Of a stretch of 48,708 bases of DNA, positions 36,549 through 48,515 are shown piece after piece; the first letter of the stretch is position 1; each line of letters begins with the position of its first letter. This DNA comes from a virus. The DNA lies in the IMG/VR virus record IMGVR_UViG_3300010354_000140, positions 1-48,708 of that record, one strand, 5' to 3'. A model generated the notes under the pieces. It saw nothing but the letters and a program-made list of their open reading frames with translations. It did not search any database and was not told the origin of the DNA. Position numbers and translations under genes: made by a program.

Positions 36549-36624
36549 GCGCCTAGGCAGGATTCGAACCTGCATCGCTCTGCAGCAGCAGTAGCCGTAC
36601 TTTCCAATTGTCTCGGACTAGGCG
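36549..36624 (-). tRNA. tRNA-like element with degenerate anticodon arm
   Basis: Acceptor strands CGCCTAG and CTAGGCG pair perfectly (seven pairs) and the T arm GCAGGTTCGAATCCTGC is canonical. T8, A14 and the D-loop GG are present. The middle (ACTGCTGCTGCAG) contains a CTG triplet run and does not form a clean five-pair anticodon stem with a seven-base loop, so I cannot read an anticodon. At 76 bases without CCA it is three longer than a simple tRNA. It may be a tRNA pseudogene, an expanded or atypical tRNA, or a tRNA-derived attachment remnant. Confidence 0.6.
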
Positions 36625-36673
36625 AAAGTTCTAAAGAGCCAGTGACCCCCAGGTTTGAGCATCGTGGAGAGGC

Positions 36674-36847
36674 TTAGGGGGTGTTAGATGGAGCAAGCGT
36701 GACTGGCCTACCGACAATCGGGCTGTGAGTTAACCAGGCGTATCCAAACAGAGGCTTACCCCAGGCCTTCGCGCTTGCCGAATGGGTCCCCGGCGCATCA
36801 GCGGCCAACTGAGCCCGATCAAAAGAGAGCGGGAACTCAACAAGCAT
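36674..36847 (-). CDS. Small unknown protein, 57 aa
   Basis: ATG at 36847, nine bases after the stop of the HU-like gene, suggests translational coupling. The reading gives MLVEFPLSFDRAQLAADAPG, THSASAKAWGKPLFGYAWLT and HSPIVGRPVTLAPSNTP. Higher GC than its neighbours. The eight-base inverted pair ATCGGGCT/AGCCCGAT (36717-36724, 36812-36819) lies within it. No family recognised. Evidence is the open frame and the position only. Confidence 0.45.
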   Translation of the reverse strand: MLVEFPLSFDRAQLAADAPGTHSASAKAWGKPLFGYAWLTHSPIVGRPVTLAPSNTP

Positions 36848-43319: not shown

Positions 43320-43569
43320 GGTGGGGATGGTTTGAAAGGGGCCAGCGGATCGCTCCGCCGATGCCATAAACCATACAGGCCAAAATCGCGCAACGTATCG
43401 GCTCAGTGTGCGGAGATGATTCTGTCCACCATTGGCGGCCGTTGCCTTGACGGCAGGGGGGCCCATACGGTACGGGCACCCGCTTGCCTCCCATGGTCGC
43501 CACGACCCTTAGAACGATCGCGCCCGCGCGTACCATGGCGCCCACCATTGCGTCAAGCGTTGCAACATT

Positions 43570-43702: not shown

Positions 43703-43760
43703 GAGGCCGATACTACGGTTTGGCGATCGGGAATCAGGAGAATCGGGCAGGGTAGTGCAT

Positions 43761-43975
43761 GCGTACTATCAGCGCAGCTTATGGGAGCCATAGGCTCAGC
43801 TTATGGTACAAACGTACTGTGTGACAGTGGCGGACTGGCACAAGTGCAGGCGTACTATCAGCGGAGCTTATGTTACAGATAGGCAGGGCTTATGGTACAG
43901 GCGTACTAGTGAGCCTATCACGCTATCGTTATACGCGCATAGGAGCATAGGAGCATACTACGGTAGCGTTATACG
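43761..43975. repeat. 89-base tandem repeat array with GTAC-containing motifs
   Basis: GCGTACTATCAGCG[C/G]AGCTTATG occurs at 43761 and 43850. GCTTATGGTACA[AA/GG]CGTACT occurs at 43799 and 43888. All are offset by exactly 89 bases, so a ~58-base block is duplicated. CGTACT therefore appears four times with spacings 51, 38 and 51. Further on, GCATAGGA repeats in tandem (43938-43956) and [T/G]CGTTATACG at 43926 and 43966. No coding frame explains this. Confidence 0.6.
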
Positions 43976-44004
43976 ATTTTATGGGAATAGTGGGAAATTG
44001 CCTG

Positions 44005-44041
44005 ATACACCGCTGGCCAGGACATAAATACACCGCTGGCC
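44005..44041. repeat. ATACACCGCTGGCC direct repeat
   Basis: Two exact 14-base copies (44005-44018, 44028-44041), 23 bases apart, lie directly before the 3' end of the NUMOD4/HNH gene. They continue the repeat-rich region to its right edge. Confidence 0.55.
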
Positions 44042-44927: not shown

Positions 44928-45233
44928 TCAAACTCTCTTAAATTTGGACAAAGACAGGTTCCAGAGTCCTGCGCTCATATCACCAGGACGATAAAGCACA
45001 TAAGAAGCCTTTTCTAGCACCATTCCACCTTCACCATCGGGAATAGCTTGTGCGTCATCTTGCCAAATGCCTTTGCATTGGCCATTATCGTCAAACACGC
45101 CTATTTCCCATTCATTGTCTTCCATGCATTGTCTCACGTGGAAGATGAGGTCTTTGAGAGAGGCTGCTTGGTAGCAGCCTTGCGTGGGAGGGAAATAGGG
45201 GCCATTGCCAGAGAAGCAGCGAACAGTGTGCAT
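44928..45233 (-). CDS. Hypothetical protein, 101 aa
   Basis: Starts MHTVRCFSGNGPYFPPTQGC and continues with YQAASLKDLIFHVRQCMEDN and WEIGVFDDNGQCKGIWQDD. Trp, Cys and acidic residues mix in a small alpha/beta protein. No family recognised. It belongs to the short leftward row with the genes at 45248 and 44767. Confidence 0.65.
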   Translation of the reverse strand: MHTVRCFSGNGPYFPPTQGCYQAASLKDLIFHVRQCMEDNEWEIGVFDDNGQCKGIWQDDAQAIPDGEGGMVLEKASYVLYRPGDMSAGLWNLSLSKFKRV

Positions 45234-45247
45234 GATGGTTTCAAAGA

Positions 45248-45436
45248 TTAGTCTTCGTGAATGATGCGAAAATCAGGATCGTTGTCTTTTTTGATCCACC
45301 GGCATTGATTGAGCTGAGGCAGCACAATAAAAAGCTTATCGTGATGGTTTTGTTCAACAATGGCAGTGGTGATAGTGGAGCCAATGCGGCTACGACCTCT
45401 GTTTGAGACGGCGATGATGTGGACGATGTCTTGCAT
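45248..45436 (-). CDS. Hypothetical protein, 62 aa
   Basis: From ATG 45436: MQDIVHIIAVSNRGRSRIGS, TITTAIVEQNHHDKLFIVLP and QLNQCRWIKKDNDPDFRIIH. A compact beta/alpha sequence with good coding character; a second frame on the same stretch (45241-45663) is low-complexity and rejected. Upstream lies a hairpin GGGCCGC...GCGGCCC (45452-45470). Family unknown. Confidence 0.6.
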   Translation of the reverse strand: MQDIVHIIAVSNRGRSRIGSTITTAIVEQNHHDKLFIVLPQLNQCRWIKKDNDPDFRIIHED

Positions 45437-45478: not shown

Positions 45479-45763
45479 TCAGGAGGCTTGTTGGAGTTGC
45501 CATTGCTTGTCCATCCAGCGCTGGCGGTCCTCAGCGCTTTCAAACAAGGCCACGGGCTCTTCGCTGTTGGGGCGAGTGCAGAAGAACTTGCTGGTGAGCA
45601 GCTTGCTGGTGCGAGCATCGCGGAAGTCTGCAGTCCAGAGCCAGAAGCCCATGCAGGAGGCAACGAGCTTCACGCGACGCTCAGTGCCAGCAGGAGCGCA
45701 AGCACGCCACCACTGACCTTCTGTGGGGCGGAAGCAATCCATGGTGAAGACGAGGTGGTTCAT
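45479..45763 (-). CDS. Hypothetical protein downstream of promoter module 1, 94 aa
   Basis: ATG 45763 (MNHLVFTMDCFRPTEGQWWR), AGGA just upstream. Body ACAPAGTERRVKLVASCMGF, WLWTADFRDARTSKLLTSKF and a helical end EDRQRWMDKQWQLQQAS. Unusually rich in Trp and Arg. It is the first gene after conserved promoter module 1 and could be an early phage protein. Family unknown. Confidence 0.65.
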   Translation of the reverse strand: MNHLVFTMDCFRPTEGQWWRACAPAGTERRVKLVASCMGFWLWTADFRDARTSKLLTSKFFCTRPNSEEPVALFESAEDRQRWMDKQWQLQQAS

Positions 45764-45780: not shown

Positions 45781-45835
45781 GGGCATCGCTGCCCTGTACG
45801 AAAAGAAATTTAGACGGAAACGGGCCTGGTGTCAA
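45781..45835 (-). promoter_or_regulatory. Promoter-leader module 1
   Basis: On the minus strand: TTGACA (45835-45830), exactly 17 bases, TAAATT (45812-45807), then 12 bases containing TTCTTTTCG, then the hairpin GGGCA-GCGA-TGCCC (45794-45781), a GNRA loop. The -35 overlaps the stop of the upstream gene. See modules at 46438, 47304 and 48421. Confidence 0.75.
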
Positions 45836-46104
45836 GTGGTGACCAGGATGTAGCGGCAAGGGACCATGGTTTCCGGCAGCTCAGGCCCGTCATCACCGAC
45901 CATGTGCCAATTGTCTTCATCATCCTGCCAGTCCAAGCATTCTGTTATTCCATCGTTAATTAAATCAATAAGCTCTTGCTTTAACAGCACAAAATGCAAA
46001 TAAACGGCATTGTCGGAAGCATTAAGCCATAAGCCATTGTCTCGGTCAAGGCCAAGATAATTAATTGCTTGATCAATGTCGTGCAGATCAAAAGAAACAG
46101 TCAT
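45832..46104 (-). CDS. Hypothetical acidic protein, 90 aa
   Basis: ATG 46104 (MTVSFDLHDIDQAINYLGLD) directly follows the T-rich stretch of a terminator-like hairpin. The body holds DGITECLDWQDDEDNWHMVG and ends PETMVPCRYILVTT. Very acidic in the middle, helical start. Upstream frame extension through the hairpin (to 46287) looks non-coding. Family unknown. Confidence 0.62.
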   Translation of the reverse strand: MTVSFDLHDIDQAINYLGLDRDNGLWLNASDNAVYLHFVLLKQELIDLINDGITECLDWQDDEDNWHMVGDDGPELPETMVPCRYILVTT

Positions 46105-46143
46105 GAGAAAAAAGAAGAAGAAAAGAAGGCCGCTGTAGCGGCC
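46105..46143 (-). terminator. Terminator-like hairpin followed by T/C tract and start codon
   Basis: GGCCGC-TACA-GCGGCC (46143-46128) followed by TTCTTTTCTTCTTCTTTTTT and then the ATG at 46104. Third example of a hairpin-tract-ATG arrangement in this window. It ends the transcript from promoter module 2. Confidence 0.65.
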
Positions 46144-46159
46144 ATTAAGAAAACAGCCT

Positions 46160-46417
46160 TTAGAAGCCCCATTCTGCACGAGGCTTGTAGCCAAGCTGGC
46201 GCAGTTCTTGCCAAATGGCGCGAGCTTTTTCAACGGAAGGATAGGAAGCACGCTCGCTACGATCAGGCATGTGCCAGGAGCGACCACCTTCGATTTTCAG
46301 GGTGTATTTTTCAATACGGACAAATTCACGATCGCGATAAGTGGTGAATTCTACGAGATCAAGATTGGGAGCCATGAGAGCGAAGCTCTGGCTTTCGGGA
46401 GTGCGTTGGAAGGCCAT
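46160..46417 (-). CDS. Hypothetical protein downstream of promoter module 2, 85 aa
   Basis: ATG 46417 has AGGAG six bases upstream, an ideal ribosome site. Sequence: MAFQRTPESQSFALMAPNLD, EFTTYRDREFVRIEKYTLKI, SWHMPDRSERASYPSVEKAR and WQELRQLGYKPR. The pattern of a small alpha/beta protein with a final W-x-E-L-x-x-x-G-Y helix is seen in many phage accessory genes, but no family is named. It is flanked by promoter module 2 and a terminator, forming a one-gene unit. Confidence 0.7.
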   Translation of the reverse strand: MAFQRTPESQSFALMAPNLDLVEFTTYRDREFVRIEKYTLKIEGGRSWHMPDRSERASYPSVEKARAIWQELRQLGYKPRAEWGF

Positions 46418-46437
46418 GGTTGTCTCCTGAGGATGGT

Positions 46438-46492
46438 GGGCATCTCTGCCCCGTTCGAAAAGAAATTTAGTCCATTTGGGCGGGCCTGTCAA
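46438..46492 (-). promoter_or_regulatory. Promoter-leader module 2
   Basis: Minus strand: TTGACA (46492-46487), 17 bases, TAAATT (46469-46464), 12 bases with TTCTTTTCG, then GGGCA-GAGA-TGCCC (46451-46438). It starts at the stop codon of the upstream gene and drives the 85-residue gene. Confidence 0.78.
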
Positions 46493-46495
46493 GCC

Positions 46496-46771
46496 CTAGC
46501 CCCATTGAGGATCACGAGCAATGGACTGAGGCAGGTCGATAATCCAAGAGGTGTAGACAGGTGCTGAGCGATCCACCTTGATCAGGCCACGCTCCTCAAG
46601 AGCTTCAATGGCACGGAGGTATTCTGGAAGGCGGGAATTTTGCATGGGCATGCGCGGCACAAAGCATGGTGCATGGCGATGTTTTCTTTTGTGATAGAGC
46701 ACGTAAGTGTAAAGATTGCGTTGGTTGATGGGGAGAGCTTCTTGCTTGTAAGGGGCGCGTTTTTTTGTCAT
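46496..46771 (-). CDS. Hypothetical basic protein with winged-helix-like end, 91 aa
   Basis: Starts MTKKRAPYKQEALPINQRNL and has YTYVLYHKRKHRHAPCFVPR followed by RLPEYLRAIEALEERGLIKV DRSAPVY-type winged-helix-like tail (helix, E-R-G-L-I-x-V wing). It resembles small DNA-binding proteins. It lies two bases after the upstream gene and ends at promoter module 2. Function unknown; a regulator of early genes is possible. Confidence 0.65.
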   Translation of the reverse strand: MTKKRAPYKQEALPINQRNLYTYVLYHKRKHRHAPCFVPRMPMQNSRLPEYLRAIEALEERGLIKVDRSAPVYTSWIIDLPQSIARDPQWG

Positions 46772-46773
46772 TG

Positions 46774-47052
46774 TCAGAAAGGAGCCTGGTCGTTAATGCC
46801 TTCAACAATCTTCCCTGCATAGTCACGAGCGGCGTACAAGCAGGAGAAGGCTTCTTTGCGTTGATCGCGAGCTTCGTAGAAAGCGCTGTCGCCTTGAGGG
46901 TAGAAATCGCGGCCGTTAAGCGTGGCTTCGCTTAGTGCATCAATGGCTGCCTGAATGGCATAGTATGCTTTTTCGTATTCTTCACGGAGAGTGTTGGCTC
47001 CAGTGCCATTGAGGTGGATGGTGGGAACGAGAGGGTTGATGCAATTGGCCAT
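46774..47052 (-). CDS. Hypothetical helical protein, 92 aa
   Basis: ATG 47052, two bases after the stop of the upstream gene; the TTG at 47058 is rejected. Sequence MANCINPLVPTIHLNGTGAN, REEYEKAYYAIQAAIDALSE and YEARDQRKEAFSCLYAARDY suggest an all-helical protein with heptad-like spacing. Family unknown. Confidence 0.68.
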   Translation of the reverse strand: MANCINPLVPTIHLNGTGANTLREEYEKAYYAIQAAIDALSEATLNGRDFYPQGDSAFYEARDQRKEAFSCLYAARDYAGKIVEGINDQAPF

Positions 47053-47054
47053 GA

Positions 47055-47285
47055 TCAAGAAATGCGCTGATAGGAGAAGGAAACGTTACTGATGGAAGGG
47101 TTAATGTCCTGCCAGCTCTGCAGATAGTGGGAAGAGGCAAAGACGATGGAAGGAGTGGCAAGCAAGGCTGGGCGTGTTTTGGTGCAGTGCTCAGCAACAG
47201 TGCCATCTGCGAAATGGAGCAGTTCCGTCACGCGAAACAAGCCAGAAGGGTCACTGTGCTGGCTGTAGCAAACGGGATAAGCCAT
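47055..47285 (-). CDS. Hypothetical protein downstream of promoter module 3, 76 aa
   Basis: ATG 47285 with GGAGG about five bases upstream (GGAGGCAACCATG). Sequence MAYPVCYSQHSDPSGLFRVT, HFADGTVAEHCTKTRPALLA and TPSIVFASSHYLQSWQDINP, beta-rich with several Cys and His. First gene of the unit begun by module 3. Family unknown. Confidence 0.68.
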   Translation of the reverse strand: MAYPVCYSQHSDPSGLFRVTELLHFADGTVAEHCTKTRPALLATPSIVFASSHYLQSWQDINPSISNVSFSYQRIS

Positions 47286-47303
47286 GGTTGCCTCCGGAAA
47301 AGC

Positions 47304-47359
47304 GGACGTCTCCGTCCCTCAACGAAATTAAAGTTAGTTCAAAACGAGGAGCCTGTAAA
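47304..47359 (-). promoter_or_regulatory. Promoter-leader module 3
   Basis: Minus strand: TTTACA (47359-47354), 17 bases, TAACTT (47336-47331), 13 bases, then GGACG-GAGA-CGTCC (47317-47304). The stem differs from modules 1 and 2 at two positions, with matching changes on the opposite arm, and keeps the GNRA loop. The spacer shares CTCGTTTTGAACTAA with module 4. Confidence 0.72.
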
Positions 47360-47384
47360 GCCCCTCGTTGATTAGCGCTGCTTA

Positions 47385-48392
47385 TCAGGCGGCCAGAGCC
47401 AGCTGGTGAGCCTTGGTGAGCGTATTGGCGGCATTGCCCCACCAGATGCTTTCTAGGCGCTGGCGGGCGCTTTCAATGGCATCCTTGCTGCGGCCAGCAT
47501 CATGCGTGAGGTATTCGCTGACGGCTTGGTAAGCGCCCCAATAGGTGCCTTGCACGCCTTTAATATCGAAGCCAATGCCTTCTCCATTGAATTTATTGGC
47601 AATGCTGTCCCAACAGGCAAGGTCTTCCAGCTTCTTGGGGCGCTGCGTGGTTTTGTCTCCGCGCTTGTCATTAGTTGTGCCTGCCAATTGATCAGCAAAC
47701 ACGTTTTCGCAATATTTGCGGAAATCAGCAGCCAGGCATGGTTTGGTGGCCATGATTTTCAGCTCTTCAATGCCAGCAGTGAATTGTTGACGCTTAAAGC
47801 AAATGATTTCAGGCAGTTTCTCAATGATTGCATTGGCATTAGTTGTGTGGCGCACGCTCATGCGTCGTTTTGCCATGCGCTTGTTTTCTGCATGGCCCAA
47901 TGCAGCAGAGAGCGTGTTTTGACATACCACGCGAATGGGCGAGAACATTGTCTGGAACGATACTGTTCCATCGTGAGAAGTGCAGCCAATAAGATATTGA
48001 TAGACGCTATCGCCTGGCAACACGTCAGCTTCGCTTTGATTGACTAGGGCAGTAAATGCCACTCTCTTGCCACCATCGAGCACGACCACGGCATCCATGG
48101 TGATATCTTCGCGAACTGCTACTGCAATGCGAATGAGCTGTTCGTTTTGAACAATGGTGTAGGAATCAGCTTTGACGCTAAGAGTGGCGTCAGTGTCAGC
48201 GCGAGCAATGCGCTGCCATCCTTCAATGGGCGTGCCAGTGGGGTCGAAGATGGGAGTGCTGATCACTTGCCAATCAGCATCGGCCAGGCGGAATGCTTCG
48301 CGAGCAGGCATGGTACCATCGACAACAGTGCCGAGACCGTGCCATGCGGCTTGGCCATGGAAAAAGGCGCCGCTTTGGAATTGATGAGCCAT
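47385..48392 (-). CDS. DUF932 phage/plasmid-like protein, 335 aa
   Basis: ATG 48392 (MAHQFQSGAFFHGQAAWHGL) chosen; upstream residues are leader. The motifs AWHGLGTVVDGTMPAREAFR, ADADWQVISTPIFD, DSVYQYLIGCTSHDGTVSFQ, RVVCQNTLSAALGHAENKRM and QLESIWWGN-type end (ARQRLESIWWGNAANTLTKA) match the DUF932/TIGR03299 family common in phages and plasmids. The function is not established; links to DNA replication or recombination have been suggested. It is under promoter module 4, the rightmost. Confidence 0.86.
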   Translation of the reverse strand: MAHQFQSGAFFHGQAAWHGLGTVVDGTMPAREAFRLADADWQVISTPIFDPTGTPIEGWQRIARADTDATLSVKADSYTIVQNEQLIRIAVAVREDITMDAVVVLDGGKRVAFTALVNQSEADVLPGDSVYQYLIGCTSHDGTVSFQTMFSPIRVVCQNTLSAALGHAENKRMAKRRMSVRHTTNANAIIEKLPEIICFKRQQFTAGIEELKIMATKPCLAADFRKYCENVFADQLAGTTNDKRGDKTTQRPKKLEDLACWDSIANKFNGEGIGFDIKGVQGTYWGAYQAVSEYLTHDAGRSKDAIESARQRLESIWWGNAANTLTKAHQLALAA

Positions 48393-48420
48393 GGTTGAGA
48401 AAAGCAGGAGGAGGAGGACA

Positions 48421-48475
48421 GGCATCGAGCTGCCCTCACGAAAAGAAAATTAGTTCAAAACGAGGGGCGCGTCAA
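48421..48475 (-). promoter_or_regulatory. Promoter-leader module 4
   Basis: Minus strand: TTGACG (48475-48470), 17 bases, TAATTT (48452-48447), 12 bases with TTCTTTTCG, then a stem GGCA...TGCC (48434-48421) with a six-base loop GCTCGA. Less perfect hairpin than the others, same spacing. Drives the DUF932 gene. Confidence 0.72.
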
Positions 48476-48515
48476 GCCCTGTTGCAAAGCTTCACAATGG
48501 GCACTGAGGACAGGG

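Follow-up and report, generated by a model that had tools for sequence, protein, structure and literature searches.

The window analysed here, the complete IMG/VR record IMGVR_UViG_3300010354_000140 (48,708 bases), ends on its right-hand side with a DUF932 gene and a row of small genes that have no family matches in Pfam and PHROG scans. Ahead of these genes stand four copies of one element, a promoter followed by a short leader hairpin, which we refer to as the module. Protein comparison places the window among relatives of Synechococcus phage S-CBS4: its major capsid protein is 87.5% identical and its portal protein 72% identical to the S-CBS4 counterparts. The same identities indicate that it very probably infects picocyanobacteria; the host of S-CBS4 is Synechococcus CB0101. 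No near DNA relatives of the right-hand 8.7 kb were found among phage isolates, and the kinship rests on the capsid and portal proteins.

All four modules lie on the minus strand (Table 1). A preliminary description of this DNA had located them there, and both direct reading and a composite pattern search bear it out; the promoter hexamers and the 17 nt spacer that it gave are present in 4/4 modules. The shared sequences it had pointed out are likewise found: TTCTTTTCG follows the -10 in modules 1, 2 and 4, and CAACCATG stands before the gene starts of modules 2, 3 and 4. As described, modules 1 to 3 carry GNRA loops (GCGA, GAGA and GAGA) and module 4 does not. Its best predicted fold is the longer GAGGGCAG/CTGTCCTC pairing, and the loop of the alternative is a hexaloop, not a GNRA tetraloop. 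With up to two mismatches allowed, the composite pattern had no match in the window beyond the four modules, and the reversed control gave zero matches. A possible fifth copy of low confidence is a descriptor match only, has no clear -35 and was not recovered by the covariance model. The folding energy of the single window hairpins is no better than chance (z -0.2 to -1.75). Hairpins this short are indistinguishable from GC-rich chance by single-sequence folding, and significance must therefore come from comparison.

Table 1. Modules, associated elements and genes at the right end of the window
Feature	Coordinates	Strand	Details
Module 1 promoter	45807..45835	-	TTGACA - 17 nt - TAAATT
Module 1 hairpin	45781..45794	-	GGGCA-GCGA-TGCCC
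Module 2 promoter	46464..46492	-	TTGACA - 17 nt - TAAATT; short GGGC/GCCC repeat surrounds the -35
Module 2 hairpin	46438..46451	-	GGGCA-GAGA-TGCCC
Module 3 promoter	47331..47359	-	TTTACA - 17 nt - TAACTT
Module 3 hairpin	47304..47317	-	GGACG-GAGA-CGTCC
Terminator-like hairpin at module 3	47345..47367	-	CGAGGGGC..GGCTCCTCG, then TTTT; loop region contains the module 3 -35 box TTTACA
Module 4 promoter	48447..48475	-	TTGACG - 17 nt - TAATTT; promoter kept in 27/27 DUF932 relatives with upstream DNA
Module 4 leader hairpin	48414..48437	-	GGGCA-GCTCGA-TGCCT (48420-48435) or longer GAGGGCAG/CTGTCCTC pairing
Tandem box upstream of module 4	48480..48497	-	TTGTGA-AGCT-TTGCAACA (variant TTGTGAAGCTTTGCAACA); read from the sequence
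Possible extra module, low confidence	43320..43380	-	TATGGT, CGGCGGA-GCGA-TCCGCTG, then ATG of a 54-codon frame
DUF932 gene behind module 4	47385..48392	-	Pfam PF06067, E 2.4e-38; phrog_1221 (PHROG 1221), E 3.6e-45
Small gene behind module 3	47055..47285	-	76 aa; followed by 46774-47052 and 46496-46771
Small gene behind module 2	46160..46417	-	85 aa; followed by 45832-46104
Small gene behind module 1	45479..45763	-	94 aa; followed by 45248-45436 and 44928-45233

The leader hairpin in related phages

To make that comparison, we counted hairpins of at least 4 pairs, closed by any of the 256 tetraloops, between a TANNNT box and an ATG in the window, its relatives and S-CBS4. Among 145 matches GCGA occurred 55 times and GAGA 14 times, and every other tetraloop at most 3 times. 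A repeat in 15 further contigs, most of which had been obtained with module-specific DNA patterns and from which the bait matches were removed, gave GCGA 16 and GAGA 10 of 48, with the next loop at 2. These counts rest on a rule of our own definition and on relatives that are not independent of one another, so they do not equal numbers of events. The GC-rich terminator-like hairpins just upstream of the same promoters have diverse loops, and none of the 19 carries G(C/A)GA. The census and its repeat rule out chance, and the limitation of the loop to G(C/A)GA points to recognition beyond stability alone.

The module family is thus far larger, by this sequence count, than the four window copies. 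In the isolate S-CBS4 the strict rule finds four G(C/A)GA modules, and a few more are seen by eye; their stems differ again. The same rule finds none in cyanophages S-CBS1, S-CBS2, S-CBS3, KBS2A and Syn5, and the descriptor finds none in 400 kb of Synechococcus SynAce01. Covariance model R1, with at most 150 candidates scored per genome, gave only weak matches in 16 cyanobacterial genomes, and those inspected lacked promoter and ATG context. The idea of a dispersed, phage-specific promoter and leader family, put forward in the preliminary description, agrees with this distribution, and the module seems to characterise a lineage to which S-CBS4 and many relatives from metagenomes belong. A DNA pattern for the hairpin alone hit 31 contigs across IMG/VR, most without promoter context, and these were judged chance. 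At the gathering score, Rfam 15 has no match at the modules, and a literature search on cyanophage leader hairpins, GNRA leaders, phiC31 terminators and terminator-loop promoters found no description of the module; it matches no Rfam family and no paper found.

Pairing and compensation in the stems

When one irregular pair was allowed in the stem, the 72 modules contained 29 G-U or U-G pairs vs 5 A-C or C-A pairs, and the non-redundant module set 26 G-U vs 1 A-C. A DNA dyad would not distinguish G-U from A-C, and the asymmetry therefore speaks for RNA. In 40 aligned sequences double-sided changes occur at all five pairs, in 64 cells vs 17.3 +/- 5.1 after shuffling and at most 11 when the alignment is slid out of register, a count that is biased because the 40 rows were selected for pairing; such bias affects the census and the wobble asymmetry less. 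The alignment used was the right-justified set, since the MAFFT alignment misplaced some hairpins. Covariation among relatives, whose lack the preliminary description had named as fatal to its reading, is therefore present.

Stem half-sites vary even inside one genome, and between orthologous genes the stem sequence changes while the hairpin stays. Homologues of the module 1 gene carry GGGCA-GCGA-TGCCC, GAGGC-GCGA-GCCTC or GGGCC-GCGA-GGCCC; those of the module 2 gene carry GGGCC-GCGA-GGCCC and GGGC-GCGA-GCCC, where the window has GAGA in its loop. The homologue of the module 3 gene in L097 has GGGCC-GCGA-GGTCC in place of the window stem, and a family of 120-124 aa is led by GGAGCCG-GAGA-CGGTTCC in S-CBS4 and by GGGGC-GCGA-GCCCC in relatives. 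Since stem changes are compensated and the hairpin persists through them in orthologous genes, the comparison shows it to be an RNA element with a fixed loop rather than a DNA dyad; that RNA structure is kept had been proposed from the window copies. It stands ahead of many unrelated small genes, which argues that the element is kept, not the gene.

Gain or loss of modules between genes also seems to occur. By eye, 46774-47052, the gene placed second behind module 3, resembles L076:4825-5082, a type of gene that in relatives has its own module (GTTGG-GCGA-CCAAC). A module-led family of about 120 aa comprises L105:31709-32074 (L105 being S-CBS4) and homologues such as L065:7675-8049; it has repeated CxxCxGxG motifs, like a DnaJ-type zinc ribbon, with a sub-threshold Pfam match only.

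Anatomy of the module

In relatives the module follows a common plan: the -10 is followed after 4-12 nt by a stem of 4-8 bp capped with a G(C/A)GA tetraloop, and the ATG comes next, usually after a further 15-18 nt. The commonest -10 is TATTGT, followed by TAATTT and TATAGT, and most modules of relatives have TATTGT or TATAGT without a clear -35, so that the promoter is more variable than the hairpin. The outermost pair lies 4-12 nt downstream of the -10 (mode 9), which places the predicted start of the hairpin at about +1 to +6. The earlier placement at about +6 therefore does not apply throughout. From the hairpin end to the ATG the distance is 15-18 nt in 36/64 modules. A Shine-Dalgarno-like sequence is present in 3/72 module leaders vs 99/615 control frames; window modules 2 and 3 are among these few.

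Upstream, a terminator-like hairpin lies within 60 nt of the -10 in 23/58 modules vs 6% of random stretches, and many of the promoters are overlapped or adjoined by one. Modules of the TTTACA class have their -35 box in the loop of this hairpin (AGGGGGCT-TTAC-AGCCCCCT-TTTG), and in many TATTGT-class modules such a hairpin takes the place of the -35. Further upstream, a TTGTNA/TTGTNACA-type box occurs in 21/59 modules vs 4.7% of random stretches. It is often tandem (TTGTNA-N4-TTGTNACA), one helical turn apart and just ahead of the terminator or promoter, and looks like a candidate site for a regulator. The TTTACA class is also preceded by a second upstream motif, ATAAGCAnCGCTnATGG.

A comparison chosen by protein

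The relatives of the DUF932 gene were drawn from IMG/VR by protein and without use of the motif, which gave 28 loci, one identical to the window protein and the others 63-69% identical. Upstream DNA is available at 27 of these loci, and every one has the promoter TTGAC - 17 or 18 nt - TAA[ACT]TT ahead of the ATG. A 5' hairpin follows the promoter in 23/27 and is missing from 4/27. These leader hairpins fall into several unrelated sequence kinds (AAGGGCAGCGACTGCCCC, AAGCGGCTCGACCCCGCT, GCGGCACTTCCGTCGC and others). Run over the whole relatives, a promoter matrix blind to the hairpin found many more modules ahead of other genes.

A second leader class stands ahead of DUF932 in L091, L092, L072 and others (AAGCGG-CTCGAC(C/A)-CCGCT(T)); it has a compensated variant, AACGG-CTCGACA-CCGTT, and starts about 2 nt nearer the -10. 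The locus with the identical protein, L102 (IMGVR_UViG_3300010370_000398), belongs to a record that extends beyond the right end of the window. On its minus strand, L102:14114-14590 holds a candidate module, GGCCA-GCGA-TGGCT, behind a strong terminator and ahead of a 146 aa frame.

Other features of the window

Besides a tRNA, the Rfam scan found an abiF RNA elsewhere in the window (RF03085, 52.9 bits; 36645-36681, minus strand). No Abi-type gene was found among the neighbouring frames scanned with Pfam, and the RNA is possibly an orphan antitoxin-like or decoy RNA. Similar DNA (92-94%) adjoins tRNA annotations in the Synechococcus CB0101 phages S-SZBM1 and S-CREM1. In the window it adjoins a tRNA-like stretch (about 36552-36625, minus strand, ending in GGTTCGAATCCTGCCTAGGCG) that neither ARAGORN nor Rfam called. 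A gene-poor stretch at about 43740-44030 contains repeated CGTACTATCAGCG(C/G)AGCTTATG-like segments. In S-CBS4, gp086 (L105:26648-27379) is annotated 'Rnase E'; Pfam shows a GerE-type helix-turn-helix only, the annotation looks wrong, and we did not use it as an argument.

Discussion

We propose that the module is a compact gene-boundary cassette of the S-CBS4-related cyanophage lineage. In many copies an intrinsic terminator would stop the upstream transcript and overlap or adjoin the next promoter, and one class would hold its -35 in the terminator loop. Transcription would start about 7 nt after the -10, and the transcript would carry the 4-8 bp G(C/A)GA hairpin at its 5' end or within about 5 nt of it. 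A short pyrimidine-rich stretch, usually without a Shine-Dalgarno sequence, would connect the hairpin to the ATG. Once transcribed, the hairpin may act in cis to shield the 5' terminus of the message, much as the ompA and papA stem-loops do, so that RNase E and RppH-type enzymes find no free end there. Given the fixed loop, a phage or host factor probably binds the hairpin and would strengthen or regulate the shield.

According to work cited in PMC3997798, E. coli mRNA is stabilised by stem-loops at its 5' terminus, and pyrophosphohydrolases require unpaired 5' nucleotides. In Prochlorococcus, RNase E is induced during P-SSP7 infection and P-SSP7 transcripts are shielded by antisense RNA, as stated in PMC9692554 and PMC10989914. 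RNase E is therefore a point of contest in cyanophage infection at which shielding would pay. In our judgement the module is best explained as a shield at the mRNA 5' terminus, with a loop that a factor probably recognises, and we hold this tentatively, at a little short of even confidence. Three observations weigh against it. A plain shield requires no specific loop, and UUCG and GAAA loops are unused, though adjacent terminators use TTCG. The TAAWTT class, window copies included, is predicted to leave about 5 unpaired 5' nucleotides, which is the limit for ompA-type protection. The distance from hairpin to ATG is constrained, which a shield does not need. Together, the loop restriction, the ATG spacing and the restriction to one lineage hint at a factor that reads the hairpin.

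These features lead to the closest competitor, which we regard as possible though less probable than the shield. Here an RNA-binding protein, encoded by the phage or by the host, would recognise the hairpin by its G(C/A)GA loop and control translation of the module-led genes, giving an RNA-level regulon in which stability is secondary. A fixed loop on a free stem, its absence from all 19 neighbouring terminator-like hairpins, and its confinement to a single phage lineage are in keeping with this, as are the 69/72 leaders without a Shine-Dalgarno sequence and the hairpin end that, in the 36 of 64 modules with the usual spacing, lies beside the expected ribosome footprint. Against this, no candidate binding protein was identified, and GNRA-type loops are also stable in their own right.

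The small hairpins of lambdoid boxB, the sites of N-protein, also combine a GNRA-like loop with a variable stem near the start of a phage transcript. By analogy the module might bring about antitermination, as lambda/P22 boxB and HK022 put do, with read-through of the terminators before the next modules, and the terminator-like hairpins upstream of 23/58 modules would suit such a role. We consider this unlikely: the sequence 5' of the hairpin shows no boxA, and a hairpin start only 4-12 nt from the -10 leaves no space for one to be transcribed; almost all units are served by a promoter of their own, which makes read-through unnecessary; and no N-like protein was identified. The modules further differ from boxB in having a true tetraloop instead of a pentaloop, in their predicted position at the extreme 5' end and in standing ahead of nearly every small gene.

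The dyad lies directly downstream of a promoter, as would suit a DNA operator bound by a repressor or activator close to the transcription start, and phage regulators of such sites exist, with pMarR binding downstream of a start site (PMC9692554). The unconserved half-sites and the strand-specific loop make this reading very improbable, as does the excess of G-U over A-C (29 to 5 in the 72 modules, 26 to 1 once redundant ones are removed), which a DNA site would not produce. That the four look-alikes are recent duplicates or functionless GC-rich chance would fit their unremarkable folding energies and the TAAATT/TCTTTTCG likeness among window copies, which could reflect recent copying, yet as a full account this is refuted by the loop census and its repeat. 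The wobble asymmetry, the orthologous stem changes and the zero matches in 400 kb of a Synechococcus genome and in five other cyanophages also speak against it, and we give it next to no credence.

Several known systems resemble the module in part. The ompA and papA mRNAs of E. coli and the aprE leader of B. subtilis likewise have a short hairpin at or near the mRNA 5' end, upstream of the start codon. These are leaders of single host genes, in contrast to the many phage copies with a fixed loop and free stems, which would stabilise their transcripts by analogy. In the early region of actinophage phiC31, promoters lie beside or inside terminator stem-loops between early genes; we know of no fixed-loop 5' leader hairpin family there.

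The SAS/ESAS elements of Cluster K mycobacteriophages likewise occur in many copies ahead of siphovirus non-structural genes, near the start codon and in one lineage (PMC3203893). SAS is a fixed 13 bp sequence, GGGATAGGAGCCC, that lies 3-7 bp before the start and contains the Shine-Dalgarno sequence (PMC3203893), whereas the hairpin sequence of the modules varies, ends mostly 15-18 nt before the ATG and usually comes without one. For ESAS the authors found little support for RNA hairpins (PMC3203893); for the modules RNA pairing is supported. The protection of P-SSP7 transcripts from host RNase E (Stazic et al., as cited in PMC9692554) has the goal proposed here, that phage mRNA is kept while host mRNA is degraded. 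By that account it is reached through a duplex with antisense RNA rather than a 5' hairpin.

Going further, the lineage may run an RNA-level regulon in which a phage-encoded factor reads the 5' G(C/A)GA hairpin as a protein-bound cap, for stability or for translation without a Shine-Dalgarno sequence, and in which units are insulated by terminators whose loop can double as a -35; we put this forward as a possibility that falls clearly below even confidence. S-CBS4 and its host Synechococcus CB0101 have both been isolated, so the predictions are testable, and the leaders may serve as compact insulated expression parts in cyanobacteria. Compared across relatives, the modules clearly illustrate how a single phage lineage reuses a structured 5' leader many times. 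The case comes from phages of picocyanobacteria, hosts in which mRNA turnover is already known to be contested during infection, and from the fixed loop a binding partner is predicted, which can be sought directly.

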